Shown: piece after piece, positions 27,846 through 47,695 of the stretch
Position numbering within the stretch: the first letter of the stretch is position 1
Layout: each line of letters begins with the position of its first letter
From: Actinoplanes sichuanensis
GTDB taxonomy: Bacteria; Actinomycetota; Actinomycetes; Mycobacteriales; Micromonosporaceae
NCBI RefSeq assembly: GCF_033097365.1
Contig: NZ_AP028461.1
Span: 11,311,501-11,375,500 of the forward strand
Length of the DNA stretch: 64,000 nt
Direction: 5' to 3'
The notes under the pieces: generated by a model
The model's database searches: none
Told to the model about the DNA's origin: nothing
Seen by the model: the letters and a program-made list of their open reading frames with translations, nothing else
Translations under genes and position numbers: made by a program

Positions 27846-28051
27846 TCTGTTCCCCTCGTGCGGCCGTGGGGGCCGCGCTTTGTCGCAGGTCGGACCATCC
27901 GTCGCCATCGGGCTTCCATGTGGCGTCCCGATTCCCCCGTACGCTTTCGTAACCGGGCGAGGGCGATCCGTTCCCTTCAACGACGTCAATGCTCGTCGCC
28001 GCACCTTGTACGAAACATGGGAGACTTGTAGCGGACCTTGTGGATTTCTTG

Positions 28052-28088
28052 AATCCCCTGGTCAGGAGCAGGGGCAATCCCCTGGTCA
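28052..28088 (+). promoter_or_regulatory. Leader with direct repeat and mutually exclusive hairpins
   Basis: AATCCCCTGGTCA occurs twice (28052-28064 and 28076-28088), 24 bp start to start. Between them CAGGGG (28069-28074) can pair with CCCCTG of either copy: upstream copy at 28055-28060 or downstream copy at 28079-28084. The second hairpin ends 18 bases before the GGAGG ribosome site at 28103. It may be a tandem operator in DNA or a two-state RNA leader. Confidence 0.5.
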
Positions 28089-28111
28089 AACCATGGGCGT
28101 ACGGAGGTCAG

Positions 28112-31105
28112 TTGGCGGCGGAGTTCGGTGTTCTCGGTGTGGTGGAGGCGTTGATCGACGGCCGCCCCGCCGATCTGGGGCATGCCCGACAGCGATGTGT
28201 CCTGGGTGTGCTGCTCGTGGAGGCCGGTCGGCCGGTCACCCCGGACCAGCTGATCGACCGGGTGTGGGGCGAGCACGCACCGCAGCGGGCCGCCGGCGCT
28301 CTCTACAGCTATCTGTCCCGGCTGCGGCGCGCGGTCGCGGACGCGGACGGCGCGGAGATCCGACGCGAGCCCGGTGGCTATCTGCTGACGGTCAATCCGC
28401 AGGCGGTGGATCTGCACCGGTTCCGGCGACTGGTCACCACCGCCCGGGCGGCCGAGTCGGACCGGTCCGCGGCCGGCCTGATCGAGCAGGCGTTGGGGCT
28501 GTGGCGGGGCGACCCGTTCGTCGGCCTGGACACCCCGTGGCTGGCCGCGACCAGGCGCACCCTGCTCGGCGAGCGGTTCGCCGCCGAGCTGGACGGCAAC
28601 GACGTGCTGCTGCGGCTGGGGCGCCACGGCGAGTTGCTGCCCGCGCTGCTGGCCGCCGTCGCCGAGCATCCCCTGGACGAGCGGCTGGCCGGTCAGGCGA
28701 TGCTCGCGCTGTACCGGTGCGGGCGCCAGGCCGACGCCGACGAGCAGTACCGGCGGATCCGCCGCCGGCTGGCCGACGAGATGGGCAGCGATCCGGGCGC
28801 CGAGCTGCGCCGGCTGCACGAGCAGGTGCTCGCGGCCGATCCGGTGCTGTCCGTGCCGGGTGGGGACGCCCGTGCCCAGGCCGGGGTGACGCCTGCGGTC
28901 TCGGTCACGGTGCCCGCGCAGTTGCCGGCCGACGTGCGGGCGTTCACCGGACGTACCGGGGAGCTCGCCGCCCTTGATCGCCTGCTGGAGCCGCCGGACG
29001 GCGACGAGCCACCGCTCACCGTCGCGTTGTTGTGCGGCACCGCCGGAGTCGGCAAGTCGGCGCTGGCGGTCCGCTGGGCGCACCGGGTCCGGGAGGCCTA
29101 TCCGGACGGGCAGCTCTACGTCAACCTGCGGGGTTACGACGCCGAGCAGCCGGTGGCGGTGGCCGACGCGCTGGCCGGGTTCCTCACCGCGCTGGGCATC
29201 CGCGCCCCGGAGATCCCGCCGGGCACCGACGAGCGCGCCGCCCGCTACCGGTCCGAGCTGACCGGCCGGCGGATGCTGATCCTGCTGGACAACGCGTCCT
29301 CGGTGGAGCAGGTCCGACCGCTGCTGCCCGGCACCGGTTCGTGTCTGGTGCTGATCACCAGTCGTGACTCGCTGCGCGGCATGGTGGCGGTCGACGGCGC
29401 CGAACGGGTCAACCTCGACCTGCTGCCGCCGGACGACGCGATCGGGCTGCTGCGCAAGCTGATCGGCCCCCGGGTGGACCGTGACCCGAAAGCCGCCGAG
29501 GCGATGGCCGCCGCGTGCGCCCGGCTGCCGCTGGCCCTGCGGATCGCCGCCGAGTTGGCCGCCGAACGCTCCGATGTGCCGTTGCCCGAGCTGGTCACCG
29601 AGCTGGGCGACCATCAGGTACGGCTGGACCTGCTGGACGCGGGCGGTGACCCCCGGGCCGAGGTCCGGGCGGTGTTCTCCTGGTCGTACCAGAACCTGCC
29701 GGAGGGCGCGGCCCGGACGTTCCGGCTGCTCGGCCTGCACCCGGGGGAGACCGCGCACGTCGACGCGGTGGCCGCGCTGATCGGTGCCCGGGCGAGCGAG
29801 ACCCGGCGGCTGCTGGACGTGCTGGGCCGGGCCAGCCTGGTCCAGCCCGGCCGGGGCGGCCGGTACGGCATGCACGATCTGCTCCGGGCGTACGCCGCGG
29901 AGCTCGCCGCCGAGCACGACGCCGAGACCGATCGGCGGGCCGCCCTGACCCGCCTGTTCGACCACTACCTGGCCGGCGCCGGCACGGCGATGGCCACGCT
30001 GTACCCGGACGGCTCGGCACCGGCCGGTGACCCGGACGCGGCCCGCGCCTGGATCGAGGCGGAGCGCCCCAACCTCGCCGCGGTCTGCACGAACGGCGCG
30101 GCGCACGGCTGGTACCGGCACACCATCGAGCTCGCCGGGACCATGTTCCGTTATCTCGACGCGGGCGGGCCGGTGGCCGAGGCGGTCACCGTGACCGCGT
30201 CCGCGGTGTCCGCCGCCCGGGCCGTCGGCGACCCGGGCGCACAGGCGCGGGCGCTGTCCAATCTGGGCCGGCTGCATCGGCGGCAGGGCCGGCTCCGCGA
30301 GTCCGCCGAGACCTACCGGCAGGCGCTGCTGCTCTACACCGACCTCGGCGAGCCCGCGGCCGAGGCGTTGGTGCTGCGCAACCTGGGCAGCGTCGACTGG
30401 CGGCGCGGCGACTACCGTCCGGCCGCCGACCACTACCGGCGGGCCGAGGCGTTGTGCCGGGATCTGGGGGACGACGACGGGCGGGCCGACGCGCTGGTCC
30501 GGCTCGGGCTGATCGACGCCCGGCTGGGCGATCACGACCGGGCGGCCGGTCGGTTCGGATCGGCCCTCGACCTGTACGCCACACTCGGCGACCGGTTCAG
30601 CGAGGCGTATGTGTTGTCGCTGCTGGCCCGACTGCCGGACGGTCCGGTTTCGCTGGAGCAGGCCGAGGCACATCTGGACCAGAGCCTCTCGGCGGTCCGC
30701 CGCACCGGTGACCGCACCGCGGAGGCGTACGTGCTGACCGATCTCGCCGCGATCCACGCCCGCCAGAGCCGCCTCGCCGAGGCCGCCGGTCACCTGCGCC
30801 GCGCTCTGGTGCTGCTGCGCCGGATCGGTGACCGGGCCAGCGAGGCCGAAGCCCTCAACGATCTCGGTCAGGTGCTGTGCGCGGCCGGGGACGCGGCCGA
30901 CGCGCAGGCCCAGCACGGTCAGGCGCTCGCGCTGGCCGAGGAGATCGGGGATCGGTACGAACAGGCGCGCGCCCACGACGGCATGGCGGCGGCGTCCCGG
31001 GATCTCGGTGCGACCGAACCGGCCGGTGCACACGCGGACCGGGCCGGGCGCCTCTTCGCCGAGCTGGCGGTACCGGCCGCGAAAGTGGCCGTGACCGGCG
31101 GGTGA
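28112..31105 (+). CDS. SARP-type regulator with BTAD, NB-ARC (STAND ATPase) and TPR repeats (AfsR-like)
   Basis: 997 residues from the TTG at 28112, which follows GGAGG and starts just before the winged helix (AAEFGVLGVVEALIDG); upstream in-frame starts would add an unrelated 41-residue tail. Residues ~5-95: OmpR-like DNA-binding domain (WGEHAPQRAAGALYSYLSRL). ~100-245: BTAD. ~270-560: NB-ARC with P-loop GTAGVGKS at ~309 and Walker-B-like RRMLILLDNAS, then LVLITSRDSL. ~620-980: TPRs such as ALSNLGRLHRRQGRLRESAE. Like AfsR, it should switch transcription in response to a ligand or partner bound by the TPRs. It converges on the SLOG/TIR genes and lies 4 kb from the lanthipeptide cluster. Confidence 0.92.
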   Translation: MAAEFGVLGVVEALIDGRPADLGHARQRCVLGVLLVEAGRPVTPDQLIDRVWGEHAPQRAAGALYSYLSRLRRAVADADGAEIRREPGGYLLTVNPQAVDLHRFRRLVTTARAAESDRSAAGLIEQALGLWRGDPFVGLDTPWLAATRRTLLGERFAAELDGNDVLLRLGRHGELLPALLAAVAEHPLDERLAGQAMLALYRCGRQADADEQYRRIRRRLADEMGSDPGAELRRLHEQVLAADPVLSVPGGDARAQAGVTPAVSVTVPAQLPADVRAFTGRTGELAALDRLLEPPDGDEPPLTVALLCGTAGVGKSALAVRWAHRVREAYPDGQLYVNLRGYDAEQPVAVADALAGFLTALGIRAPEIPPGTDERAARYRSELTGRRMLILLDNASSVEQVRPLLPGTGSCLVLITSRDSLRGMVAVDGAERVNLDLLPPDDAIGLLRKLIGPRVDRDPKAAEAMAAACARLPLALRIAAELAAERSDVPLPELVTELGDHQVRLDLLDAGGDPRAEVRAVFSWSYQNLPEGAARTFRLLGLHPGETAHVDAVAALIGARASETRRLLDVLGRASLVQPGRGGRYGMHDLLRAYAAELAAEHDAETDRRAALTRLFDHYLAGAGTAMATLYPDGSAPAGDPDAARAWIEAERPNLAAVCTNGAAHGWYRHTIELAGTMFRYLDAGGPVAEAVTVTASAVSAARAVGDPGAQARALSNLGRLHRRQGRLRESAETYRQALLLYTDLGEPAAEALVLRNLGSVDWRRGDYRPAADHYRRAEALCRDLGDDDGRADALVRLGLIDARLGDHDRAAGRFGSALDLYATLGDRFSEAYVLSLLARLPDGPVSLEQAEAHLDQSLSAVRRTGDRTAEAYVLTDLAAIHARQSRLAEAAGHLRRALVLLRRIGDRASEAEALNDLGQVLCAAGDAADAQAQHGQALALAEEIGDRYEQARAHDGMAAASRDLGATEPAGAHADRAGRLFAELAVPAAKVAVTGG

Positions 31106-31142: not shown

Positions 31143-31613
31143 TCAGTCCCGCTGGACGCCGTCGATCCAGAGCACGGTGACCGGGCAGCCGCGGGCCCGG
31201 GCGTAGGCGACCACGTCCGCGGTGCCGCCCAGCCCGCGGGCGGGTTGCCCGTCCCACACGGCGAACAGGTGGTCGCAGCGGTCCACCAGGGCCTGACCGG
31301 CGGCGAGGAAGCTCTCGTCGGACGGTTCGCCACCGGGGACGGTGATCACCGTGGCCGCGGCCCGGACGAGATCCTCGAACCGGGCCCGGCTGCCGTCGGT
31401 GAGCGAACCGCCGTAGTCGGCCCACGGCAGAACCGCCTCCAGCGTGCCGCCGGCCGCCAGCACATGGGCGGCGAACAGCTGGTCGGCGCCGTCGGCGAGA
31501 CTCGACACCCCGAGCAGCCCGGCGCCGGTGGGTAGTACCCGCCGCCAGTGGTCCATCGCCCGTTCGGCGATGCCCGGTGGAAGGACCCGGTGACCGGTGA
31601 CACCGAACCGCAC
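31143..31613 (-). CDS. SLOG-like Rossmannoid nucleotide-binding protein
   Basis: 156 residues from GTG at 31613, five bases after GGAGG. The opening RFGVTGHRVLPPG, then LLGVSSLADGADQLFAAHVL, GTLEAVLPWADY, VDRCDHLFAVWDGQPARGLG and GTADVVAYARARGCPVTVLW give the alternating strand/glycine pattern of the SLOG superfamily (DprA/LOG/YspA-like folds), which bind nucleotides such as NAD- or ADP-ribose-derived ligands. No effector domain is attached. It follows the TIR-WD40 gene by 66 bases on the same strand, so the two are probably cotranscribed. TIR enzymes make NAD-derived signals and SLOG domains can sense them, as in Thoeris; that link is inference. Confidence 0.7.
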   Translation of the reverse strand: MRFGVTGHRVLPPGIAERAMDHWRRVLPTGAGLLGVSSLADGADQLFAAHVLAAGGTLEAVLPWADYGGSLTDGSRARFEDLVRAAATVITVPGGEPSDESFLAAGQALVDRCDHLFAVWDGQPARGLGGTADVVAYARARGCPVTVLWIDGVQRD

Positions 31614-31679
31614 ATTGACCTCCGTACGAAGCAACCTGACGATACGGCCTCCCGGCCGTGTGCGGGGGGCACGTGATCG

Positions 31680-34600
31680 TCAGCAGGTCGACCGGTACGG
31701 GAGTTCCGGAACGTAGAGGGCCCATTCGTCGGCGGTGAGGCCGCGCCCGCTGATCGTGCAGGCGTGCGCGACCGGATCGGCGGTGACCTCGGCCGGGATC
31801 GCGGTGTCCCAGAACGTGATGGTCCGGCTGGGGACGATGCCCAGCGAGCCACCGGCGGCCAGGCTCCGCCCGTCCGGACTGAAGACCATGTAGACGTTCT
31901 GCAGGTCGGAGTTCTTGAGTACGGCGTACCGGATCGGGGTGCTCGGGTCGGTGATGTCCCACAGCATGATCGAGTTGTCCAGGGCGGCGGTGGCCAGCGT
32001 GTGCCCGTCCGGGGCGAACGACGCCCAGAGGATGAAGCTGCCGTTGGCGGGGAGTGTGCTGATCCGGGCCGGCTGGGTCGGGTCGGCCACGTCGTACAGG
32101 TAGGTGGTCCCGCTGTCGTTGGTGCCCGCCGCCAGGATCCGCCCGTTCGGGCTGAACTCGATGGACGTCGCCATGGTGCTGCTGTAGTCGGAGACCGGGA
32201 TCGAGGCGACCCGGGCCGGGGCCGACCGGTTGGTCATGTCCCACATCGAGATGTTGTAGCCGTCGGCGACCGCCAGGGTCTTCCCGTCCGGGGTGAACGT
32301 CATCGAACTCAACGTCCGGTTGCCGAAGGCGAGGTCGGCGAGCTTGGTGGGTTTCGTCCGGTCGGACACGTCGTACACCGCCGTCTTGCCGTCCGCCCGC
32401 CCGACGACCAGCGTGCGCCAGTCCTGGCTGATCGTCGCCACCCAGACGGCGACACCCGGGTCGTTGATCCGGGACACGACGGTGGCCTGGTCGGTCCGGC
32501 TCACGTCCAGCAGCGTGGTGACGTTGTCGGTGCCGATGACGTACATGGTCGCGCCGTCGCCGGTGGCCATCATCCCCACCAGTTCGCCGCTCTGCAGCGG
32601 CACGGTGGGCCCGGCCACCGGTGCCGACGGGACGGTCAGGTCGTACGTGATGGCGTTGCTGTCGCGGCGGGCCGCGGTCAGCGAGCCGTCCGGGCGGTAG
32701 GCCAGGCCGGCGAGCTGCGCGGGGAACGGGCCGCGGATCGTGGTGACCGGCCCGCGGGCGTAACGGCCCTTGGGGCTCCACAGCGTCGCGATGTTGCGGT
32801 CGCCGGCGGTGAGCAGCGTCCGGCCGTCCTGGCTGTAGGCCATCGACCGGACCGGGGCGCCGCGAGCGGTCAGCGCGGTGATCTCGGTGTTCATCGACGG
32901 CCAGTTGTCGTTGTAGTCGATGCTCACCACGACCGAGGTTCCGTCGGAGTTCCCGATGGCCAGCATGTCCCCGGTCGGGCTGAACACCATCGTGGAGAAG
33001 TCACTGTCGCCGGGACCGGCCGTGCGGGAGTCCCAGGGCTGTGGATCGTCCAGGTCGGCCATGCCGAAGAGGTAGACGTAGTCGCTCGGCCCCTGCATGG
33101 CGACGACCGGCAGCGTCGGGTTGAACTCGATGGCGGCGTCCGGGACCTTGGTGCCCCAGCCCGGGTCGAGGACCGCGTGCCGTACCGGGGCGCTGAGATC
33201 GCTCAGGTCCCAGCCGACCACGTCGGTGCCGCTGGTGACGCCGGTCCGCCCGTCCGGGCCGAACTTCAGCGGGTACCCGCCGGTGAGCGTGGACAGGCGG
33301 GCCGGAGTCGTACCCGTGACGTTCCACAGGACGGTGTTCTTGTCCCGGTTGCTCACCGCGACGGTACGCCCGTCCGGGCTGAAGTTCACCGCGGTGATGC
33401 CGGCGTCGTCGGTGAGCGGCGTCAGCCGTACCGGATCAGCGGGTTTCGTCACGTCCCACCGGGTCGCCTCGGCGCTTCCGTCGAAGACGACGAGGGTCCG
33501 TCCGTCGCGGCTGACCGCCAGTGACTTCTCCGCGGTCCCGGTGGCGGGCAGCGAGGCGACCCGGACCGGTTCGGCCGGGGCCGTGGTGTCCCAGAGCGAC
33601 ACCGTCCCACTGGCGCCGGTGGTGGCGACCATCTGATCGGTGAGGGCCTCGACGTCGATCACGTCATTGAGATAGCCGGAGTACGTCGACGCCATGGTGA
33701 GGTGACTGACCTGCTCACGGGTCGCCGCGTCGTCGTGCAGGTTCTGCGCGGCCACGGCCAGCCGGAGGGCCTTGCGCGGGTCGTCACCGATCATCCCGCG
33801 GGCCCGGGTGATCAGCCGCTGGTTGATCACGATGCGCTGTTGCAGCTCGGCGGCCTCGCGCTGGCGGCGGGCCTCCTCGGACGCCTCCCGGGCCAGCTGC
33901 TCCTGCCGCTTGCGTTCCTCCTCGGCCAGCCGGGCCAGCTCGCGGTGGTGCTCGGCGATCCGCTCCTGCTCCTTGGCCCGGGCCGTGGCCTGGTCGGCCA
34001 GCTCCTGCTGGTGCTTCGCGTTGGCCTTCTCCCGCTCGGCGTTGGTCTTCTGCCGGGCGGCTTCCGCGGCGGCCTCGCCGGCCAGTTTCTGCTGCTGTTC
34101 GGCTTTCGCCTGCTGTCGTTCCGCGTTGGCCTGCTGGGTGGCCGCGCTCGCCTTGAACCGCTCGGCGTTGGCCTGCTCCCGCCGGGCCTCCGCGGACGCC
34201 TCCTCGGCCAGTGCCTGCTGCTGCCGGGCCAGCTGCTCCTGCCGTTCGGTCTCGGCCGTCGCCGCCTGCGCCCGGGCCTCCTGCTCCCGGGCGTTCTCCA
34301 GTTGGACCCGCGCGTTCTCCTCCTGGGCCAGCGCGTTCGCCTGCTGCCGCTGCGATTCGGCGGTGGCCCGTTCCGCGGTGTCGCGCTGCTCCGAGGCGAG
34401 TTCCTCCTGGAGGCGGGCCTCGTTCGCGGCCAGGGTGGCCCGCTCCGCGTTGTGGACCGCGACCACTCCGGTCAGCGACGTGACCAGGGTCAGCAGGACC
34501 AGCGCGGCCACCGCCACCACGGACAGTCGCCGGGCCCGCCGGTGTTGCCGGACATCCTCGCCCTCCAGTTCGTCCTTGCTCACTCCGTGCATCGGGGCGG

Positions 34601-35087
34601 CGAGCTGCGCTATGGCGTCGCGGAACCGGACGTGCTGCAGGCTCAGGTGCAGATCGTCGCGGGCCCAGCGCAGATCCAGGTAGAGCGGCTCCTCGGCGAA
34701 GACGCCCCGCAACGCGTGCGGCACCGCGGTGGAGTCGGCGGTGAAGTCGCGAGCGGCCGGGTCCCAGCTCCACTCACCGTCGGTCACCACCGGCAGGATG
34801 CGGTCGGCGGACTTCGTCGCGAGCCAGTGCTCGATCTCCCGGTTCACCCACGGCGAGGCGGCCGCTTCGGGGGAGGCGAGCAGCACGAAGTGCCTGGAGC
34901 CGTCGAGCGCGTCCTGAATGGACGTCCACAGTTTGGGCGTGACCGACAGGCCGGTCTGGTCCCGGAAGATCCACAGGGCGCGGCGCCGGTGCCATGGCTT
35001 CGCCAGTCGATGCAGACCCCGTTGTACGGCGGGCGCGAGCCGCCCGTCGGCGGCGTGACTGTACGAGATGAAACCATCGAATGGCAT
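31680..35087 (-). CDS. TIR domain - transmembrane - coiled coil - WD40 protein
   Basis: 1135 residues from ATG at 35087 (MPFDGFISYSHAADG), with CGGGGAC upstream. Residues 1-~150: TIR domain, including FISYSH, IFRDQTGLSVTPKLW and SPWVNREIEHWL, where Glu84 sits in the position of the catalytic glutamate of TIR NADases. Residues 188-211: a single membrane segment preceded by RQHRRARR, predicting N-terminus inside. ~214-435: Gln/Glu/Ala-rich coiled coil. ~460-1130: about 13 WD40-like blades (FSPDGRTVAVSN, SQDGRTLLTAGD, FTPDGKTLAVAD). The sensor would then face outside and the TIR domain inside, like a Toll-like receptor. Coupled with the SLOG-like gene downstream. Confidence 0.88.
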   Translation of the reverse strand: MPFDGFISYSHAADGRLAPAVQRGLHRLAKPWHRRRALWIFRDQTGLSVTPKLWTSIQDALDGSRHFVLLASPEAAASPWVNREIEHWLATKSADRILPVVTDGEWSWDPAARDFTADSTAVPHALRGVFAEEPLYLDLRWARDDLHLSLQHVRFRDAIAQLAAPMHGVSKDELEGEDVRQHRRARRLSVVAVAALVLLTLVTSLTGVVAVHNAERATLAANEARLQEELASEQRDTAERATAESQRQQANALAQEENARVQLENAREQEARAQAATAETERQEQLARQQQALAEEASAEARREQANAERFKASAATQQANAERQQAKAEQQQKLAGEAAAEAARQKTNAEREKANAKHQQELADQATARAKEQERIAEHHRELARLAEEERKRQEQLAREASEEARRQREAAELQQRIVINQRLITRARGMIGDDPRKALRLAVAAQNLHDDAATREQVSHLTMASTYSGYLNDVIDVEALTDQMVATTGASGTVSLWDTTAPAEPVRVASLPATGTAEKSLAVSRDGRTLVVFDGSAEATRWDVTKPADPVRLTPLTDDAGITAVNFSPDGRTVAVSNRDKNTVLWNVTGTTPARLSTLTGGYPLKFGPDGRTGVTSGTDVVGWDLSDLSAPVRHAVLDPGWGTKVPDAAIEFNPTLPVVAMQGPSDYVYLFGMADLDDPQPWDSRTAGPGDSDFSTMVFSPTGDMLAIGNSDGTSVVVSIDYNDNWPSMNTEITALTARGAPVRSMAYSQDGRTLLTAGDRNIATLWSPKGRYARGPVTTIRGPFPAQLAGLAYRPDGSLTAARRDSNAITYDLTVPSAPVAGPTVPLQSGELVGMMATGDGATMYVIGTDNVTTLLDVSRTDQATVVSRINDPGVAVWVATISQDWRTLVVGRADGKTAVYDVSDRTKPTKLADLAFGNRTLSSMTFTPDGKTLAVADGYNISMWDMTNRSAPARVASIPVSDYSSTMATSIEFSPNGRILAAGTNDSGTTYLYDVADPTQPARISTLPANGSFILWASFAPDGHTLATAALDNSIMLWDITDPSTPIRYAVLKNSDLQNVYMVFSPDGRSLAAGGSLGIVPSRTITFWDTAIPAEVTADPVAHACTISGRGLTADEWALYVPELPYRSTC

Positions 35088-35220: not shown

Positions 35221-35252
35221 GGCCGGGCATTCTCCCCCGTGGATGCCCGGCC
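35221..35252 (-). terminator. Terminator after the lanthipeptide-associated ABC permease
   Basis: A 10-bp perfect stem GGCCGGGCAT/ATGCCCGGCC with a 12-base loop lies 24 bases beyond the permease stop codon and before the TIR gene start region. It probably ends the leftward lanthipeptide transcript. Confidence 0.6.
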
Positions 35253-37310: not shown

Positions 37311-37335
37311 TCATCATAGCGCATAACTACGATGA
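37311..37335. promoter_or_regulatory. Palindrome between lanT and the HTH-only gene
   Basis: TCATCATAG-N7-CTACGATGA, 8 of 9 positions complementary, in a conspicuously AT-rich 60-bp stretch. It overlaps the lanT stop codon and is 41 bp upstream of the HTH-only start. It could be an operator (T-N11-A type sites are usual for LysR) or a weak terminator for lanT. Confidence 0.45.
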
Positions 37336-39429
37336 CAGCGGTAATGCTTCTTCGTACAGCGATCGATACAGGCCCGCGTTCCGGCAGAGCTCGTCGTGAG
37401 TGCCCGCGGCGACCACCCGGCCGTGATCCATCACCACGATCAGATCGGCGTCGAGGATCGAGGTCAGCCGGTGCGCGATGACGATCCGGGTCGCCCGCAG
37501 ACTGTTGAAGAACGCCGTCACGGTCGACTCGGAGATGTTGTCCAGCGAGCTGGTGGCCTCGTCGAGCACCACGATGGACGCCTCCTTGAAAGCGGCCCGG
37601 GCCAGCGCGATCCGCTGCCGTTGGCCGCCGGAGAAGTTCTGCCCGAGCGACGCGACAGGGGTGTCGTAGCCCAGCGGCAGCGCCCTGATCTCGTCGTGCA
37701 ACCCGACCCGTCGGGCCGCCTCGTGCACCCGCTCCTCCTCCGGATCACCGGTGCCCCAGGCGATGTTGTCGCGGACCGTCCCGTACTCCAGCACCACGTT
37801 CTGCGGCACGTAGGCGACCGCCTGGTAGAACCGGTCCCGGTCGTGATCGCCCAGCTCGGTGCCGCCGATCAGGATCCGCCCGGTGTCCGGCCGGTGCAGG
37901 CCGACCAGCAGACGGGCCAGAGTGGACTTGCCGCAGCCGGACGGGCCGACGATCGCCACCTTGGCACCCTCCGGGACCCGCAGCGCGGCGCCGTCGAGCA
38001 CCCGGCGGCCGAACGTGCCATAGCCGAACGAGACCCCCTCGACCACGACGTCGCCGGACGGTCGGGCCGCCGTCTCGCCACGGAACAGGTCGTCGGCCGG
38101 GCGCAGCAGCACGTCGGCGATCCGGGCCAGCAGCGACCCGGCCTGCGCCAGCCTGGTGATCGAGCCGGCCAGCACGTTCACCTGGCCGAGCAGTAGCCCG
38201 GTCAGCGCCTGCACCGACACCACCAGCGAGACACCGGGTGCGGCCTGCCCGGCCAGCGCCTGCTGGAGGATCACCACCGGACCGACGAACATCACCCCGG
38301 CCAGCGCCGCGTCGAAGACGCCCTGCACGGTCTGCAGCCGGTCGGACTGCCGCTGAGCCGCGTCACTGCGCCGCCGCCACTGGGCCGCGTACACCGCCTC
38401 CATGCCGTTCGTCTTGATCAGCTCCAGGCCGGAGATCGCGGACAGTTGAGTGGCCTGCAACTCCGCCTGCGCCCGGGTCTGCGCGTGGGCCAGCCGCCGG
38501 ACGGTACGGGCCGCCGCCAGCGTGCCCACGGCCAGCGCCGCCATCAGCAGCAGGGTGGTCACCAGCGCGGCCACCGACACGGCGGCCAGCCAGCCCAGCA
38601 GCACCCCCGTCACCACCAGCGCGGCCAGCGCCACGATCAGGTCGTTACAGAGCAGGGCACGCAGGCGGTGCACCGACTCCAGGGTGAACATCAGGTCGCC
38701 GGGACCACGGTTCTCCACGAAGGCGTACGGCAACCGCAGCAGCCGATCGAACACGGCCCCCGCCAGCGACCGTCCCACCGCGGCCGACGCCACGATGCCG
38801 GCCACCGTGCGGACGAACAGCAGCAGCCCGAACGCCAGGCCGACCCCGGCCAGCAACGGCCCCGCCGACAGCCCGCCCGCCTGATCGCCGAACAGCCGCT
38901 CCAACAGCCACGGGATTCCCAGCGGCACCATCGAGCTGACCAGCGACAGGACCAGCACCAGGCCGAGCAGTCCACGGCGCTGCCAGGCGAACCGGCCCAG
39001 CATCCGGAGCCCGGACGGCGGTCGGGTCCGCACCCGACGAGACAGCGGATCGGCGGTGACGGCCAGCCCGGAGAAGCTCTCGGCGAACTCCTCGGCACTG
39101 ACCCGGCGGCGGCCCGCACCCGGGTCGAGCAGGGTCACGCCACCGGAGTCGAAGCCGGTCACCACCACGAAGTGCGACCGTTTCCAATGGCAGATCGCCG
39201 GCCGGCCGAGTGCGGCCAGACCGGCCGGGGAGGTGCGGTAGACGTGTGGGCGTACCCCGTTCTCCCGCAGCACCGCGGCGAGGTCGGCGACGGTCAGACC
39301 ATCCCGGCCGACCCGGTAGCGGGTGCGTAGGTCGTGCATCGGCACCCCGGCCCCGGCCGCCTCCAGGAGCATGGCGCAGCAGCACAGGCCGCACTCGGTC
39401 GGGCCGAGCTGCTCGACCAGCCGGGTCAC
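37327..39429 (-). CDS. lanT: Peptidase-containing ABC transporter LanT (C39 type)
   Basis: 700 residues from GTG at 39429, overlapping the LanM stop (GTGA). Residues 1-~130: C39 bacteriocin-processing peptidase with Cys13 in QLGPTECGLCC, His86 in KRSHFVVVTG and Asp102 in LLDPGAG. ~150-440: six-segment ABC membrane domain. ~470-690: ATPase with Walker A GPSGCGKST, signature NFSGGQRQRIALARA and Walker B SIVVLDEATSSLD. It should cleave the precursor after its Gly-Gly and export it. Complete and canonical in length for a one-protein LanT. Confidence 0.95.
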   Translation of the reverse strand: MTRLVEQLGPTECGLCCCAMLLEAAGAGVPMHDLRTRYRVGRDGLTVADLAAVLRENGVRPHVYRTSPAGLAALGRPAICHWKRSHFVVVTGFDSGGVTLLDPGAGRRRVSAEEFAESFSGLAVTADPLSRRVRTRPPSGLRMLGRFAWQRRGLLGLVLVLSLVSSMVPLGIPWLLERLFGDQAGGLSAGPLLAGVGLAFGLLLFVRTVAGIVASAAVGRSLAGAVFDRLLRLPYAFVENRGPGDLMFTLESVHRLRALLCNDLIVALAALVVTGVLLGWLAAVSVAALVTTLLLMAALAVGTLAAARTVRRLAHAQTRAQAELQATQLSAISGLELIKTNGMEAVYAAQWRRRSDAAQRQSDRLQTVQGVFDAALAGVMFVGPVVILQQALAGQAAPGVSLVVSVQALTGLLLGQVNVLAGSITRLAQAGSLLARIADVLLRPADDLFRGETAARPSGDVVVEGVSFGYGTFGRRVLDGAALRVPEGAKVAIVGPSGCGKSTLARLLVGLHRPDTGRILIGGTELGDHDRDRFYQAVAYVPQNVVLEYGTVRDNIAWGTGDPEEERVHEAARRVGLHDEIRALPLGYDTPVASLGQNFSGGQRQRIALARAAFKEASIVVLDEATSSLDNISESTVTAFFNSLRATRIVIAHRLTSILDADLIVVMDHGRVVAAGTHDELCRNAGLYRSLYEEALPLSS

Positions 39430-42341
39430 GGCCGGTCCCGGCGGAACGTCAGCGGTGAGGCGACGTCCACCTCGCCGGTGCTCAGGATCAGGCCCATGCC
39501 GACGCCGGCCAGGCCCACGTAGAGCGAGTCGTTCAGCACCGACTTGCCGGTCCGGGCCCGAAGCGCCCGCGGCAGGACCCGGGTGACCAGCTGCGCCCGG
39601 CGGTCCTCGGCCCGTTCGGCGGCCCGCCCGGAGGTGTCCCAACGCGCCGACCGGGCGAGGATCAGCAGGTTGCCGACGTCACCGTGGCAGAGCGAAAGGT
39701 TGAGCCCGAAGCCGTCCACCGCCACCGTCTCGGCCAGCCGGGTGACGTCCGCGCCCGGGCCGGACGGCACGTCCTCGCCGGCGGCCAGTCGCTCGATCTG
39801 GCCGAGCAGCACACCGGGGGTCCCGTGGCACCAGCCCCGAGCGGCCCGTTCCGGCGCCCGGTCGCTGATCGCCCAGTGCTGCTCGTCGTGGTTCCAGAGG
39901 GCGTCGTGGGCGGCGGACAGCTCCGGGCTGCGCACGCCGTACCGGGCCAGGGCGGCCAGCGTGCCGCTGGTGCCGTGCGCGAACCCGCTGTACCGGGACT
40001 TCCCGTCGGTCGGTGTCCCGGTCAGATGCTGGAACGCCGCCTCGATCACCGCCGGCCGACCGGCCGTGAGTGCCGCGGACAGTAGCCCGGCCGAACCCAT
40101 CAGAAAGTCGTTGTCGGCCATCGCCGGAAGGTCGGCGGGCACCAGATCCCACAGTGCCGTGCCCATCTCGCTCAGCTCGGCCGAGCCGGTCAACCGGCCC
40201 GCCTCCAGCGCGGCGAACGCCACCCCGGGATAGCCGCCGCACAGCCCGCCGGCCACCTCACGGCGCCGCCGGACCGGGTCGTCGAGCAGCGCCCGCACCC
40301 GCGGTACCAGTGCCGCCCGGGCCAGCTCCCGATACCGTGGCTCGTCCAGGAACACCCCGGCGGCGGCCAGGAACAACGCCAGGCCGGGCACCCCGGCGTA
40401 CAGGTCGTCGCCCAGTTCGTCGACCCGCCACGGGTGCTCCTGGGTGGTGTCCCGGATGGTCGCGCCGACCCATCCGGGACGGCCACCGGCGAACCCGGCC
40501 CGGTCGTGCACCTCGGCGGCGATGTCCCCGACCGTCTGCCGGATCCGCCCGGGCACTCCGGCCCGGGACGCGCGGCGCATCGCCGGCAGGTACGCCGGAG
40601 CGTCCGCCTCGGGTCCGGTCAGGTCCGCGTACGCCGCCCGGATCACCCGCAGGTTCAGCTCCCGGTCCGCGCCGGACATCGCCCGCAGTCCGGCGACCGC
40701 CTGGTCCAGCGGAGTCTCGCTGAGCACGTCGGCGATCGGCCGGCCCCGGTGATGCACCCAGGTCGAACCGGTACGCAGTGTGAAGAACGGGATGTCGCCC
40801 TGGAACAGATCGTCGATCTCGGCCCGGACCACGGCCGGGGTGAAGTGCTCCACCCGGCCCAGCCCGACCCGGTGCAGCAGCATCCGCTTCGCGGCGGTGT
40901 CCTGCTGGAACGCCGGATGCGCGGCGGTCCGCAGCAGCTTGTAGTACTTACCGGTGGTCTCCAGCACGGCCCGGGTCGGCAGATCGGCGAAGAGCTCACG
41001 CAGCCACGACTCGACCAGGCCACGGTCGGCGGCGGCCCAGTCCCAGCACTCGGCGAAACCGCGGCACAGTTCGGTCAGTTCCACGGCCCGGGACACGGTC
41101 GACGGGCGGACCGCCGGGGTGTCCACCGAGCCGGTCACCATCGTCACCCGGGGCCGGTCGGTCCCGAAGTCCTCCAGCGCGGGCATCGCGGTGACCGCCC
41201 GCTGGCCCGGCACGTAGCCGAGGAAACCGATGTCGATCGAGGTGGACGGATCAGCCGGGTCGGAGATCCGGGTCGGCAGGAAGCCGGTGGAGAAGACGGT
41301 GTGCGCCAGCGTCTCACCGGCCGAGCCGGCTCCCGTCCCACCGGCCCGCTGGTTCACGCTGAACAGCGACTCGGCGTCGACCACCACCGGCAGCCCACGG
41401 TGGTTGAGCACGTTCTCGTAGTGCATGTCGCCGGCCCGCAGTAGATGCAGGACACCGAGCAGACGGCCGGCCGCCCGAAAATAGCCGGGCTGCTCGATCG
41501 CGGGCGCCCGGTCGGCGTGCTCCTGCCAACCGACGCCGCTGCCGCACCACACCTGGAGCACCGGCAGGTCGAAGCCGGCCGCCGCGCCGATCCGGGTGAC
41601 CAACGTGTTGTAGGCCAGCTCGGCGGCCATCGATCGCGGTTTGTAGACGATCACCCGGTCGCCGCCGAAGGTCAGGCGGCACACCGTCTGCCCGCCGGCG
41701 TGGGTGTCGCCCAGGCCGTACCCGATGTCGTGCAGTTGCACCAGGCCCCCGCCGGTCGCCGAAGGCGGCAATGTGCCGTCACCGACCGCGGCGGTCGTCG
41801 CCGCCAGCATTCGCCGCGCGTGCCGCAGGGTGTTGCGGGTCAGCACGCCGAGCTGCCGCCGCAACTCGGGGAAGACCTCACCCAACGTCACCCGGAACCC
41901 GTCCCGTCCGGCCAGGTCACAGAAATGCCAGAGACGTTCCTCGGCGGTCTCGCCGGGCAGTGCGCCGGACCGCCGCAAAAGATCCAGAGCGACCACGAGG
42001 GTACGGACGGAGGCGTCCTGAATCCGGCCGGCCAGCCAGCGGGCCAGCCCGTCGGCGAACTCCCCGGCCCGGTGCGCGGTCAGCGGGGAACCGGCGAACA
42101 CCAGCTCGGCGGCGGCCCGATGACGATCGGCCCAGGCCCGTGCGAACGAGTCGAAGTGGGCGGGCCCGTCGATGTCCCGCCAGGTGGTGTCGGCGGCGAG
42201 AGCGGCCAGGTCGCCGGTGCGGTCTGGCCTTTCCCCATCGCCGTCATCGGCCGGGAGGTCGGAGATGCGGCTCAAGAATCCGTGCAGCGCCGCGGGATCT
42301 GTGTATTCGGGAAAAAGGGGTCGGACGTCTTTCAGTCGCAT
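39426..42341 (-). CDS. lanM: Class II lanthipeptide synthetase LanM
   Basis: 971 residues from ATG at 42341; an earlier in-frame ATG lies beyond the hairpin at 42368-42395 and is rejected. N-terminal ~580 residues: LanM dehydratase (DUF4135), with KPRSMAAELAYNTLV, LRAGDMHYENVLNH and VVDAESLFS (kinase-like active site phosphorylating Ser/Thr before elimination). C-terminal ~380 residues: LanC-like cyclase with GFAHGTSGTLAAL, zinc ligands Cys838 (RGWCHGTPG), Cys885 and His886 (SLCHGDVGN). All needed residues seem intact. It dehydrates Ser/Thr and forms (methyl)lanthionine in the LanA peptide encoded 92 bases upstream. Confidence 0.96.
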   Translation of the reverse strand: MRLKDVRPLFPEYTDPAALHGFLSRISDLPADDGDGERPDRTGDLAALAADTTWRDIDGPAHFDSFARAWADRHRAAAELVFAGSPLTAHRAGEFADGLARWLAGRIQDASVRTLVVALDLLRRSGALPGETAEERLWHFCDLAGRDGFRVTLGEVFPELRRQLGVLTRNTLRHARRMLAATTAAVGDGTLPPSATGGGLVQLHDIGYGLGDTHAGGQTVCRLTFGGDRVIVYKPRSMAAELAYNTLVTRIGAAAGFDLPVLQVWCGSGVGWQEHADRAPAIEQPGYFRAAGRLLGVLHLLRAGDMHYENVLNHRGLPVVVDAESLFSVNQRAGGTGAGSAGETLAHTVFSTGFLPTRISDPADPSTSIDIGFLGYVPGQRAVTAMPALEDFGTDRPRVTMVTGSVDTPAVRPSTVSRAVELTELCRGFAECWDWAAADRGLVESWLRELFADLPTRAVLETTGKYYKLLRTAAHPAFQQDTAAKRMLLHRVGLGRVEHFTPAVVRAEIDDLFQGDIPFFTLRTGSTWVHHRGRPIADVLSETPLDQAVAGLRAMSGADRELNLRVIRAAYADLTGPEADAPAYLPAMRRASRAGVPGRIRQTVGDIAAEVHDRAGFAGGRPGWVGATIRDTTQEHPWRVDELGDDLYAGVPGLALFLAAAGVFLDEPRYRELARAALVPRVRALLDDPVRRRREVAGGLCGGYPGVAFAALEAGRLTGSAELSEMGTALWDLVPADLPAMADNDFLMGSAGLLSAALTAGRPAVIEAAFQHLTGTPTDGKSRYSGFAHGTSGTLAALARYGVRSPELSAAHDALWNHDEQHWAISDRAPERAARGWCHGTPGVLLGQIERLAAGEDVPSGPGADVTRLAETVAVDGFGLNLSLCHGDVGNLLILARSARWDTSGRAAERAEDRRAQLVTRVLPRALRARTGKSVLNDSLYVGLAGVGMGLILSTGEVDVASPLTFRRDRP

Positions 42342-42367
42342 GCCATCACTCGCATCCGGAAACGGCC

Positions 42368-42395
42368 ACGGGGCCCGTGTCGGCACGGGCCCCGT
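42368..42395 (-). terminator. Attenuator hairpin between lanA and lanM
   Basis: A perfect 12-bp stem (42368-42379 with 42384-42395) with a TCGG tetraloop sits between the lanA stop (42433) and lanM start (42341). In lanthipeptide operons such partial terminators let lanA transcript exceed lanM transcript. Confidence 0.65.
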
Positions 42396-42432
42396 TGGCA
42401 TTCTCTATTCGGTCGCCGTCGCCGTTTCTCGA

Positions 42433-42624
42433 TCAGTCGCCGGTGCCGCAGAGCCGCTTCGGGACCGAGCACTCCCAGGACACGGTGCACACCCAGCCGA
42501 TGGTGCTCGTTCCGGGCACCGTCCACAGACCGCCGGCCTCCTGCGCCGCGTCCAGGTCGATCTCCTGCAGGCTCAGCTCGGTGGCGACGTCACCGGCGGC
42601 GGCGAACTTGTCGTTCTCGCTCAT
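42433..42624 (-). CDS. lanA: Class II lanthipeptide precursor (mersacidin/lacticin-alpha-type core)
   Basis: 63 residues, ATG preceded by GAGAGGA. Leader residues 1-32 are acidic and helical, with ELSLQEIDLDAAQEAGG ending in a double glycine, the C39 peptidase site. The predicted 31-residue core starts at Leu33 (LWTVPGTSTIGW) and contains Cys46-T-V-S-W-E-Cys52 and a third Cys59 (SVPKRLCGTGD). C-T-x-S/T-x-E-C is the lipid II-binding ring motif of mersacidin, actagardine and the alpha peptides of two-component lantibiotics. Eight Ser/Thr and three Cys allow up to three (methyl)lanthionine rings. No second precursor (beta peptide) is visible. Placed directly upstream of lanM. Confidence 0.92.
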   Translation of the reverse strand: MSENDKFAAAGDVATELSLQEIDLDAAQEAGGLWTVPGTSTIGWVCTVSWECSVPKRLCGTGD

Positions 42625-42643
42625 TGTCGGGTCCTCTCAGTGG

Positions 42644-42726
42644 GGCGGCGGGTGACTCCCGCCGGCCTCGGTGGGCGACGGGTGGCTCCCGCCGGCCTCG
42701 GTGGCCGGCGGGTTGTTCCCGCCGGC
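42644..42726. repeat. 30-bp tandem repeat (2.8 copies) upstream of lanA
   Basis: Units at 42644-42673, 42674-42703 and 42704-42726 (partial), beginning GGCG(G/A)CGGGTGNCTCCCGCCGG. Each contains a short inverted repeat (CGGCGGG..CCCGCCG), so in leftward transcripts of the XRE gene or in the lanA leader region they would form a row of hairpins. They end 20 bases before the lanA start codon. Confidence 0.8.
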
Positions 42727-42793
42727 TGAGAACCACGACACCAGGAATCGATCCGGAAAGCGCGTCTACATCGAATACTTTGAATCGAATGGC

Positions 42794-44047
42794 CTATTCG
42801 CCGAGCTCATTCAGCTCCCGCCACAATTGCGCGGCCCGCCGGAATGCCGAGATGTCCTCGGCCGCCTGGGCCGCCTCGCGCAACGTGGCCACCGCCTCCG
42901 CGGTCCGCCCGATCTGTGCCAGCGCGCTGCCCAGCGCGTGCCGGAACCGCACGCCCTCCAGGCCCATCAGCTGCCCCCGGTCGACCGACGCGGCCATCTC
43001 GACGGCCCGCTCCGGCGCCCCGGTCGCGAACGCGTAACGCACCTCCAGGGCGGCCAGCCGGTTCGCCTCGGTGCCCGACTCGGCCGCCGTCGCCGCCCGG
43101 GCCGCCGCCATATGCTGCTCGATCATCTCCGGATCGGCCCGGACGTCGAGGAGCGTCGAGACCGCGGCCCGGCTGAACCGCGCCCAGTCCCGCAGCGAGG
43201 TGCGCGGATCGGCCAACATCCGGCGTGCGCCGCCGAGCAGCTCCAGCGACCGGTCCGTCTCACCGGCCGCGGCCAGCGCCAGGCTCGCCGCCCACTGCGC
43301 CCGGCCGCTGATCGACGGGCTGCCCAGCGCCTCGGCCATGGTCAGCATGCTGTTGACCAGGCGGACGATCTCCGCACCGCCACCGGCGTCGGCGAGCACC
43401 GAGATGTGCACGGCCAGCAGTCTGATGTGCTCGCTGCCCTGCCGGAAGGCGGTGCCGTCGATCTCCTCGGCGGCCCGCTCCACGTGGGTGAACGCCTCGT
43501 CCAGGCGGCCGATGTCGCGGGCCGCGGCGGCCAGCGACACCAGGATCCGGACCCGCGCCTCGGCCACCCCGGCGGCCTCGGCCGCCGGCAGCAACTCGCG
43601 CAGCAACGAATGGCGTGCGTTGCGGTCGCCGCGCATCTCCAGGACCCGCTCCAGCGCCAGCCCGTGGGTCAGGATCGCGTGCTGAGAGCCGGACCGACGC
43701 GCGGTGGCGAAGATCTTCGCGAGCCGGTCCTCGGCCTGCTCCAGGTCACCCTGGTCGATGGCGCTGCTGGCGAGCAGCTCCTGCACCAGCTCGGCCCGAC
43801 CGGCCGCGGAGTCCTCCGACCCGGTGCTGATGTCGATGTCCCCGGCCAGGTCACGCAACGGCACGTTGAGAACCTTGGCCAGGTGGGCGACCACGTCGAG
43901 GGTCGGCACCCGGGCGCCGGACTCCAGCAGGGAGATGTACGACTGGTTGACCGCCCCGGACGCCAGGTCGCGCTGGGACAGCCCCAGGTCGGAGCGCAGC
44001 CTCCGCAGGCGGCGACCGAACTCGGGCTGAGGCACCTGAGCGACCAC
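42794..44047 (-). CDS. XRE-family HTH regulator with TPR-like C-terminus
   Basis: 417 residues from GTG at 44047, six bases after GAGGAAG. Residues ~8-65: XRE HTH (FGRRLRRLRSDLGLSQRDLA, NQSYISLLESGARVPTLDVV). Remaining ~340 residues are alanine-rich helical repeats similar to TPRs, a layout known from quorum-peptide or cytokine-like responsive regulators in actinomycetes. It reads toward lanA, 169 bases upstream of it, and is the probable cluster regulator. A divergent promoter region of ~200 bases separates it from the SWIM-vWA-MoxR operon. Confidence 0.85.
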   Translation of the reverse strand: MVAQVPQPEFGRRLRRLRSDLGLSQRDLASGAVNQSYISLLESGARVPTLDVVAHLAKVLNVPLRDLAGDIDISTGSEDSAAGRAELVQELLASSAIDQGDLEQAEDRLAKIFATARRSGSQHAILTHGLALERVLEMRGDRNARHSLLRELLPAAEAAGVAEARVRILVSLAAAARDIGRLDEAFTHVERAAEEIDGTAFRQGSEHIRLLAVHISVLADAGGGAEIVRLVNSMLTMAEALGSPSISGRAQWAASLALAAAGETDRSLELLGGARRMLADPRTSLRDWARFSRAAVSTLLDVRADPEMIEQHMAAARAATAAESGTEANRLAALEVRYAFATGAPERAVEMAASVDRGQLMGLEGVRFRHALGSALAQIGRTAEAVATLREAAQAAEDISAFRRAAQLWRELNELGE

Positions 44048-44249
44048 GAAGCACTTCCTCACTCGTCCGTCCGCGCCCACCGCCCCCGACCGGCGCCTTC
44101 ATGACTAGCGTAATGGCTTCGGCAATGCCCGTCATCAGTGACCACCGCTCCCGCCGGTCTTCCGGAAACTCCCTCCTCACCTCGGCCGACGCGGTTTTGT
44201 CGTACCGGTGGGATACAACTTCCGCACCTGTTCGTGAGGAGGTCTGGTT

Positions 44250-44750: not shown

Positions 44751-46345
44751 TGCTGGCCGACGCCCTGCGCACCCCGCCGGATGGTCTCGGCGAGGCGTTC
44801 ACCCTGATCGACGGGCTCGACGACGCACTGGTCCACGGTCTGGCCCGGCTCGACGAGGAGCGCGCCGCCGCCCTGGAGTCGTTCGCGGCCGCCTTCACCG
44901 GCTCACCGCTGTCCGGCCGGGTCACCGACGCGATCGGCAAGATCGTCGCCGGCTCGGTCACCGACGAGCACCTGGCCGTGCTGGCCGGAGCCCGCGCCGC
45001 CCTGACCGGAGCCGCCCACGACGCCCTGCTCGGCCGCCTCGACTCGGCCCTCGGCCGCTCCCGCCCGGCGTGGCCCACGACGTCCACCGACGCCGGGCCA
45101 CTGCCCGCCGATGACCGTCCCGGGCCGGTGCTCACCGAGGACGCTTCCGATCCATTGCCCGCTGACGGTCGTTCCGGGTCGTTGCCCGTTGATGGTCGGT
45201 CGGGGTCGTTGCCCGCTGACGGTCGGTCCCGGCCGCTGCTCGCCGGTGGCCGGTCCTGGCTGCGTGAGCTGGCCCTCGCCGGGTGGCGTGGGGTCGACCA
45301 CGAGCTGGCCGGCGGTGGCGACCGGGCGGTTCAGGCGCTGCTCGCCGACCCGTCCGGGCGGCGGCTGGCGGTGCTGCTCGACGGTTTCGCCGCCGAGCTG
45401 CGCAGCGCCGCGCCGGTCGCCACGTTCGACCGGATCCCGGTGCGCCGCTGGGCCGACCTTTGGGCCCGGGCGATCCTGCTCTCCCAGGACACTTTTGCGG
45501 CCGTCGGCGTTTCCCCCTCCGCTTCGGCCGCTTCGGCCGCTTCGACCACCTCCGCCGGTTCGGCGGCCTCGGCCGTCTCTGCTACGGGCGTGGTCTCGGC
45601 TGCTGCGGCCGTCGCGGCTGACGGTCGGCTTCTGCTGCTCGGCGTCGACCTGCACGAGCACCCGACGGTCTTCCGCGCTCAGGCTCACGGGCTGTTGGAG
45701 ACGGCCGGTGGCGAGGTGCGGCTGGTCCGGGTGAGCGTGGCGGCGGCCAAGGTCGACACCATCAGCGGGTCGTCCGCGTGGCGGATGCTCAGCGGATTCC
45801 CGGTGTTCCGGGAGGCCCTGGCCGGCCGGCGGACGGTCGAGGTGTCCGGCATGGCGCTCACCCCGGCCGGCGACCTGCTCTGGGACGAGTCACGGGCGGT
45901 GCCCGGCGAGCCCGCCGACCCGTTCGCGGTCGCCCGGGTCCGGCTCGGCGCGGCGACCGCCTCGCCGGTGGCCCCGCTCGACAGGCATCCGGCGGCCATC
46001 GCCGAGCCGGTCCTGCTGGAGGGCTACACCGCCGGCGCGGAGTCGTTCGAGCTGGGCGGGGTCACTCTCGCCGTCGACTCCGACCGGCTGCCCGAGGCCG
46101 GCCCGATCACTCCGGCCCTGGTCGCCGCGTCCACCGCCTGTCTCGGCCTGCTCCGCTGGGATGCCGGCCGCTGGGCGGTGCAACCGCTCGCCGTGCAGGC
46201 GCTGGTCCGTAAGAAGCCCGTCGTCGCGCACACCGGCGACTGGGCGCTCGGCCCGACCGAGCCCAAGGCGGCCAAGGCCGAGGCGGTCGCCGGCACCGCC
46301 GTCGACGTGCTGCGTGAGCGCGCGGGAAGGCTGTTGCGGAAATGA
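44750..46345 (+). CDS. Unrecognised 531-residue protein of the vWA-MoxR operon
   Basis: Not assigned. Residues 1-100 are helical and acidic (LRTPPDGLGEAFTLIDGLDD). Residues ~110-165 are a linker with 9-residue repeats (LPADGRSGS, LPVDGRSGS, LPADGRSRP) encoded by a 27-bp tandem repeat. Another Ser/Ala/Thr-rich low-complexity stretch lies at ~255-285. The second half looks like a mixed alpha/beta domain (LLLLGVDLHEHPTVFRAQAH, SGMALTPAGDLLWDESRAVP). No membrane segment, P-loop or known motif. In related operons this slot is often a DUF5691 protein; I cannot confirm that here. Ends in an ATGA overlap with the vWA gene. Confidence 0.75.
   Translation: MLADALRTPPDGLGEAFTLIDGLDDALVHGLARLDEERAAALESFAAAFTGSPLSGRVTDAIGKIVAGSVTDEHLAVLAGARAALTGAAHDALLGRLDSALGRSRPAWPTTSTDAGPLPADDRPGPVLTEDASDPLPADGRSGSLPVDGRSGSLPADGRSRPLLAGGRSWLRELALAGWRGVDHELAGGGDRAVQALLADPSGRRLAVLLDGFAAELRSAAPVATFDRIPVRRWADLWARAILLSQDTFAAVGVSPSASAASAASTTSAGSAASAVSATGVVSAAAAVAADGRLLLLGVDLHEHPTVFRAQAHGLLETAGGEVRLVRVSVAAAKVDTISGSSAWRMLSGFPVFREALAGRRTVEVSGMALTPAGDLLWDESRAVPGEPADPFAVARVRLGAATASPVAPLDRHPAAIAEPVLLEGYTAGAESFELGGVTLAVDSDRLPEAGPITPALVAASTACLGLLRWDAGRWAVQPLAVQALVRKKPVVAHTGDWALGPTEPKAAKAEAVAGTAVDVLRERAGRLLRK
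45155..45259 (+). repeat. 27-bp tandem repeat inside the coding region
   Basis: Starts at 45155, 45182, 45209 and a decayed fourth copy at 45236; a further weak copy lies at about 45098. Unit begins TTGCCCG(C/T)TGA(C/T)GGTCG. The 27-bp period keeps frame and encodes the 9-residue LPADGRSGS-type repeats, so copy number can change without frameshift. Confidence 0.8.
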
Positions 46346-47670: not shown

Positions 47671-47695
47671 TCTCTCACCCTAGGAGACCGTCCCC

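Follow-up and report, generated by a model that had tools for sequence, protein, structure and literature searches.

A TIR-WD40 membrane receptor, a YpsA-type SLOG protein and a SARP regulator form a conserved Actinoplanes cassette with a possible route from the envelope to gene expression

A 64,000-nt stretch of the Actinoplanes sichuanensis genome (hereafter the window; assembly GCF_033097365.1, NZ_AP028461.1, positions 11,311,501–11,375,500 of the forward strand, from a genome held in a single contig of 12.1 Mb) carries three neighboring genes that make up, in Actinoplanes and its close kin, a cohesive cassette. The genes encode a membrane protein with a TIR domain and WD40 repeats (the TIR receptor), a small stand-alone SLOG protein, and a regulator of the SARP family, and the cassette is a putative variant of TIR-SLOG signaling distinct from Thoeris. 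Based on sequence and structure models, the favored reading, with a probability of roughly 0.42, is that an envelope receptor makes a signal derived from nicotinamide adenine dinucleotide (NAD) that is bound by the SLOG protein, with an output via gene expression. Two WD40 propellers, held outside the membrane on a coiled-coil stalk, would bind an envelope or external cue, and clustering would gather the cytoplasmic TIR domains. These may then convert NAD+ to an ADP-ribose-type product, a step for which the conserved glutamate is what is observed, and the YpsA-type SLOG encoded alongside, recognized by fold and motif, would bind that product and pass the output through the SARP regulator.

In the window, the receptor gene extends from an ATG at 35087 to a stop at 31680 (31680–35087, reverse strand; 1135 residues) and is followed in the same direction, after a 66-base gap, by the SLOG gene (31143–31613, reverse strand), which starts at a GTG at 31613 with GGAGG just ahead (156 residues; 163 if a TTG at 31634 is used). 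The SARP gene (27989–31105, forward strand) converges on the pair. The original prediction, made from the sequence of the window, described a 1135-residue protein with a TIR domain, E84, one transmembrane (TM) segment, a coiled coil, and WD40 repeats, with a SLOG gene 66 bases on, and its positions proved exact to the base. Among the best 80 of 234 loci, a selection that favors close relatives and Nocardiopsis and in which partners were typed by tblastn similarity within set distance limits, the three genes occur together in 17 (L070–L085 and L090). Across the window and 19 further loci, the SARP and SLOG genes are both present in 20/20 and the TIR receptor in 18/20, while any other flanking gene family occurs in at most four. 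The receptor and SLOG genes are either codirectional, as in the window, or divergent, and one locus (L085) has two receptors in tandem. Genes were called throughout with a simple codon-bias caller that overlooked the SLOG genes at L045, L060, and L081, the last of which was counted from its search match. Given this conservation, the gene arrangement is not mere chance.

The pair counts point the same way, and chance adjacency is ruled out by the conserved cassette together with these counts set against expectation. A sample of 150 genomes of the family yielded 57 TIR-receptor matches (three of them partial) in 25 genomes, and the counts cover these 57 places, 105 SLOG places, and 61 places, merged to 50, with RyR, a Pfam family named for the animal ryanodine receptor. 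For nine of the 57 TIR receptors a SLOG gene is no more than 5 kb away, all in the genus of the window, compared to about 0.03–0.06 expected for uniform placement over 9 Mb. The SLOG flanks were compared over 1.5 kb at 30 places and over longer neighborhoods at 26 places and the window, with a few more added later. Further, among 15 genomes of the genus, TIR receptors are present in 10/10 with a cassette-type SLOG (unlinked from it in one) and in 1/5 without (Fisher p 0.0037, uncorrected for kinship). The predicted TIR-SLOG adjacency thus stands as a cassette of Actinoplanes and its kin and does not extend to a general rule, the linked matches being confined to one genus.

The TIR domain (residues 6–106, or 48–148 of the longer open reading frame; 34770–35072, reverse strand) was matched by Pfam TIR_2 with 37.6 bits (cut-off 28). 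Its E84 (codon 34836–34838, reverse strand) sits in W-V-N-R-E, as the glutamate of a W-x-x-x-E motif that we take to occupy the position of the catalytic E642 of SARM1. This residue is invariant in 18/18 aligned TIRs, a set including three of the four receptor paralogues of the window's genome, and in 24/24 sequences of a set including all four. A glutamate is likewise present in all 54 receptor rows, 52 at position 84 and two in offset rows via the motif. The suggestion that a glutamate occupies the NADase position of the TIR domain is therefore borne out at the level of sequence conservation, and E84 also aligns with the equivalent glutamate of PDB entry 9m0n, deposited as 'Tetratricopeptide repeat protein' (E 0.008). 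An Actinoplanes TIR, ApTir, appears among the TIR NADases listed in the available part of PMC8494770.

A full-length receptor model, built from an alignment of 24 sequences, places long helices at residues 213–337 and 356–432, a predicted coiled-coil stalk (residues 213–432; 33792–34451, reverse strand) that is of low confidence to about residue 370. Beyond it, residues 469 to 1094 (31806–33683, reverse strand) contain 56 strands, mostly with a predicted local distance difference test score (pLDDT) of about 80–96, which counted as 14 four-stranded blades give two predicted seven-bladed propellers; Pfam WD40 matches with 85.9 bits (cut-off 27). The TIR part is poorly modeled, with block means of 41–81.

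The original suggestion that the WD40 part faces outside and the TIR domain inside is made likely by the charge bias around the membrane helix, a C-terminal cysteine pair, and an analogy to kinase-TM-WD40 proteins. The single hydrophobic stretch of the receptor, at residues 188–211 (34455–34526, reverse strand), is predicted to be a membrane helix and has HRRARR just before it, with five lysine or arginine residues in the 15 positions on the N-terminal side of the stretch and two in the 15 on its C-terminal side. The C-terminal cap (31683–31760, reverse strand) carries C1110 and C1135, a pair spaced by 24–26 residues in 54/54 receptor rows (50 different) and forming the only cysteines after residue 230 in 50/54 (46 different). 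A disulphide outside the membrane fits this pattern best. A like tail with the cysteine pair ends three proteins of the window's genome, the Ser/Thr kinase-like TM-WD40 proteins L197 and L200 and the protease/STAND-like TM-WD40 protein L198, all of which have further cysteines ahead of the propeller. The order enzyme, membrane helix, WD40, and C-terminal cysteine pair is thus shared by the receptor with L197 and L200, which have a kinase where the receptor has a TIR domain. Contrary to the cysteine argument, the kinase-like WD40 protein L199 is cysteine-free and the pair in L201 is differently spaced; the kinase, protease, and STAND labels of L197–L201 come from reading the sequences by eye.

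The small protein next to the receptor is, on its predicted structure, a Rossmann-like SLOG fold of the YpsA type. It was assigned by fold because sequence searches of Pfam, NCBIfam, and the PDB gave nothing firm: Pfam YpsA (PF06908) matches six of 26 relatives at E ≤ 1 (best 1.4e-5) and not the window protein, and a profile search reached YpsA (2nx2) at an E of 0.35. A model built from the alignment of these 26 relatives is confident (pLDDT 91.7) and has YpsA 2nx2 as its best PDB fold match (E 1e-7), with all 15 fold matches at E ≤ 1e-3 being YpsA, DprA, or ShosA. The SLOG of ThsA bound to 3'-cyclic ADP-ribose (3'cADPR; 7uxs) is a weaker match (E 7.8e-3, probability 0.99). The protein also shares the GxD/E motif described for YpsA in the accessible text of PMC6459960, where mutation of the motif disables the protein; here it reads G49-A50-D51 in the 163-residue numbering (31482–31490, reverse strand), with G49 and D51 invariant in 26/26 aligned SLOGs. 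With the predicted fold nearest to YpsA and the motif of that clade in place, the SLOG identity first proposed for this protein is upheld. Unlike YpsA, which has a role in cell division in Bacillus subtilis (PMC6459960, in part), this branch adjoins genes for TIR, RyR, or helix-turn-helix (HTH) regulator proteins. A protein search returned 3975 relatives at E ≤ 1e-5, and the names given among the 120 listed are mostly 'hypothetical protein' and occasionally 'DNA recombination-mediator protein A' or 'DUF1273'. Judged by the SLOG, A. philippinensis and A. xinjiangensis are the nearest named relatives.

The converging gene had been described as a SARP-NB-ARC-TPR regulator, and it matches Trans_reg_C (a winged helix, 28.6 bits), BTAD (126.8 bits), NB-ARC, and TPR in Pfam, all over cut-off. 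Orthology to AfsR was rejected based on NCBIfam NF053617 (542 bits versus a cut-off of 1430). Known bacterial TIR systems lead in most cases to the loss of NAD+ or to abortive infection. For the present cassette, altered gene expression seems, tentatively, a more likely output than cell suicide because Pfam detected no killing domain in the receptor, SLOG, or SARP protein and the third conserved gene encodes this regulator.

The partners of the cassette have different histories. The SLOGs of the cassette loci are monophyletic (20 rows, support 100/99), the codirectional ones forming a clade of nine (94/92), while the TIR receptors adjacent to a SLOG are not (approximately unbiased test, p-AU 5e-45; 23 versus 23 rows). 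The receptor tree comprised 46 rows with TIR and TM, after four copies and four long-branched distant rows were dropped from 54, and an earlier tree with 50 rows had the same outcome. A paralogue of the window's genome without a SLOG neighbor (L051) groups with receptors of the divergent layout at moderate support (93/79, 96/75, and 94/77). The 46-row tree rejects the idea of one old TIR-SLOG pair passed down without change. Because the SLOGs form one clade and their TIR neighbors do not, the TIR slot has probably been refilled, with one receptor taking the place of another while the neighboring SLOG was inherited vertically; an ancestral pair of receptors followed by differential loss would look similar. 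Some lineages have lost one partner of the cassette. Genome G130 (L048) has SLOG and SARP together and its two receptors elsewhere.

Nucleotide-centered conflict systems combining TIR, SLOG, and RyR, with similar domains and predicted logic, were reportedly described by Burroughs et al. in 2015. The literature, as far as its available parts extend, yielded no description of the receptor-SLOG-SARP cassette, and an earlier mention in Burroughs et al. 2015 is possible. TIR, DrHyd, and SLOG are regarded as related nucleotide-handling domains, with SLOG acting as sensor or enzyme (PMC9503650 and PMC7159879, in excerpt). In Thoeris, the ThsB TIR proteins produce cyclic ADP-ribose (cADPR) isomers that activate a SIR2-SLOG form of ThsA, and ThsA also comes in a TM-macro form (available portion of PMC11204291). 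The cassette resembles the first form in that a TIR protein is encoded beside a SLOG protein, which in Thoeris reads the TIR product (PMC11204291, same portion), and differs in that its SLOG is stand-alone and YpsA-like, its TIR domain is part of a WD40 membrane receptor, and its third gene encodes a SARP. Likewise, TM-macro Thoeris combines TIR proteins with membrane and nucleotide-binding parts (PMC11204291, as excerpted); its membrane segment belongs to the effector, that of the cassette to the TIR protein, and a search of the cassette proteins gave no macro domain. Membership in Thoeris was rejected, as neither SIR2-SLOG nor TM-macro ThsA was found in the three proteins and the SLOG, at 156–163 residues, has no SIR2.

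Several observations weigh against a signaling pair of receptor and SLOG. Only the 9 of 57 receptor matches adjoin a SLOG, and the four receptor paralogues of the window's genome have no SLOG next to them. In genome G137 (L150), SARP and receptor genes are adjacent with no SLOG between them and another SLOG lies elsewhere in the genome; in G028 (L047), with a layout like L087, a 23-residue TIR start is what adjoins the SLOG and the receptors are elsewhere. At L086 and L087 the SLOG and SARP genes occur without the receptor. Pfam assigns no SLOG family to the window SLOG, and a weak HMMER alignment to the SARM1 TIR (E 0.99) does not place E84 on the SARM1 glutamate. The constant neighbor of the SLOG in the cassette is the SARP gene, and the commonest SLOG partner, in 43 of the best 80 loci, is an XRE-TPR-like regulator directly ahead of it (HTH_31 in Pfam for L088, the one such regulator scanned); 14 of the 80 have none of the partners sought. 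The SLOG could thus be a nucleotide-binding partner of regulators, SARP here and XRE-TPR-like elsewhere, that answers metabolism, with the TIR receptor a separate module that repeatedly lands alongside. SARP adjoins SLOG in all 20 cassette loci, even without the receptor, and a majority of the TIR receptors have no SLOG nearby, all of which favors this account, yet it appears unlikely overall: the slot beside the SLOG was re-occupied by a second TIR lineage, the receptor accompanies this SLOG in every genus genome that has it, unlinked in one, and a convergent neighbor is not the same as an operon partner. A distant SLOG at L066 also adjoins a TIR-like FxsC-type protein, with TIR_2 below cut-off.

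Two further accounts keep the TIR enzyme at the center and are less probable. The SLOG may serve as an off-switch, clearing the TIR product as an enzyme or a sponge and so holding a dangerous NADase in check, as would suit the codirectional genes with their 66-base gap, the lack of a recognized effector in the cassette, and the N-glycosidic cleavage by LOG-type SLOGs and proposed cADPR degradation by phage SLOGs (PMC9503650, in part). This seems improbable when the four paralogues in the window's genome do without such a neighbor and the G137 receptor has no adjoining SLOG, though another is present in that genome. Slightly more doubtful again is a role of the receptor in abortive infection, as an NADase effector set off at the envelope and merely tuned by SLOG and SARP. 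Antiviral systems commonly use TIR domains as effectors (PMC9503650, available part), and the receptor matches ThsB models, if weakly (E 0.0038 and 0.03). Against this, nine flanking genes of the window gave only ABC transporter and AAA ATPase cross-matches to mad3 and mad8 in a PADLOC scan, so no defense island was seen, and the multiple receptor copies in the genus suit a receptor family at least equally. A receptor-SLOG signaling pair is therefore preferred, as a tentative reading.

If that reading is true, the cassette would offer a receptor-shaped TIR protein with its sensor outside and its signal reader a separate small protein, lacking any recognized killing domain, and a compact set of soil-bacterial genes for testing whether bacterial TIR nucleotides control gene expression. 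A broader version would be a Toll-like route to transcription, from outside propellers via TIR to an NAD product on a free SLOG and on to a STAND-type SARP, with sister lineages acting via RyR proteins; the receptors or SLOGs of those lineages acting through RyR would therefore make TIR, SLOG, and RyR exchangeable parts of one network. In this full form the proposal is rather unlikely.

Elsewhere, RyR proteins accompany relatives of both the SLOG and the receptor. A SLOG gene lies within 5 kb of an RyR domain at 31 of the 105 SLOG places, with the RyR upstream in 31/31, on the same strand in 30/31, and at a median gap of 45 bases, and a TIR receptor is equally close to RyR at 6 of the 57 receptor places, which belong to three genomes from two other genera; the expected number for each is again about 0.03–0.06. 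Neither a TIR receptor nor a SLOG is near 14 of the 50 RyR places. Three of the 31 RyR neighbors were scanned with Pfam (L054, L055, and L067) and are TrkA_N-RyR membrane proteins, while L068, a fourth scanned protein that is not among the 31, combines TrkA_N with an RyR match below cut-off. These RyR membrane proteins look like alternative readers for relatives of the SLOG and the TIR receptor, and the TIR receptor-RyR and SLOG-RyR gene pairs provide a route to the ligands of bacterial RyR domains. A role of TrkA_N-RyR as a K+ channel was discarded, with no TxGYG-like filter seen by eye in four sequences.

At L167, L170, L171, and L172, from three genomes of the family, TIR-TM-WD40 genes adjoin genes for TrkA_N-RyR or stand-alone RyR proteins, and at L172 the receptor and TrkA_N-RyR genes abut. 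The receptor-RyR cluster at L167 includes two proteins of 618 and 655 residues (L167:7342–9198 and L167:10781–12748) with no Pfam match at E ≤ 0.01. At L093 (6729–7985), one of the named loci, the SLOG follows a gene whose protein joins two DUF1003 stretches to RyR, another RyR membrane platform. SLOG or TrkA_N-RyR genes also occur beside genes of FxSxx peptide systems (FxsC- or FxsT-like) with TIR or TIR-like proteins at L066, L173, and L178. TIR_2 is over cut-off in L178 and below it in the FxsC-type protein of L066, and the Fxs labels at these three loci are in part our presumption.

Ahead of the receptor gene is a hairpin with a perfect 10-bp stem (35221–35252, reverse strand), conserved in 9/11 aligned codirectional loci and without a match in Rfam. 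Its core pattern occurs at two places in the window's genome when up to three mismatches are allowed. With up to two, 15 of 40 genomes of the genus have it, at 17 places in all, compared to none for the reversed control. A sister form of the hairpin adjoins P450-like, ESX-like, and other genes, as labeled by eye. Around the cassette genes, predictions gave no sigma-70-type promoter and one intrinsic terminator, not above shuffled sequences and of little weight in such DNA. Elsewhere in the window, a cluster resembling those for class II lanthipeptides (37327–44062, reverse strand) includes genes for a C39-peptidase ABC transporter, a DUF4135-LANC_like synthetase, an HTH regulator, and a 63-residue candidate precursor with no Pfam match, and consecutive VWA_CoxE, AAA_5 (MoxR-like), and DUF5682 genes are present at 46342–51600 (forward strand).

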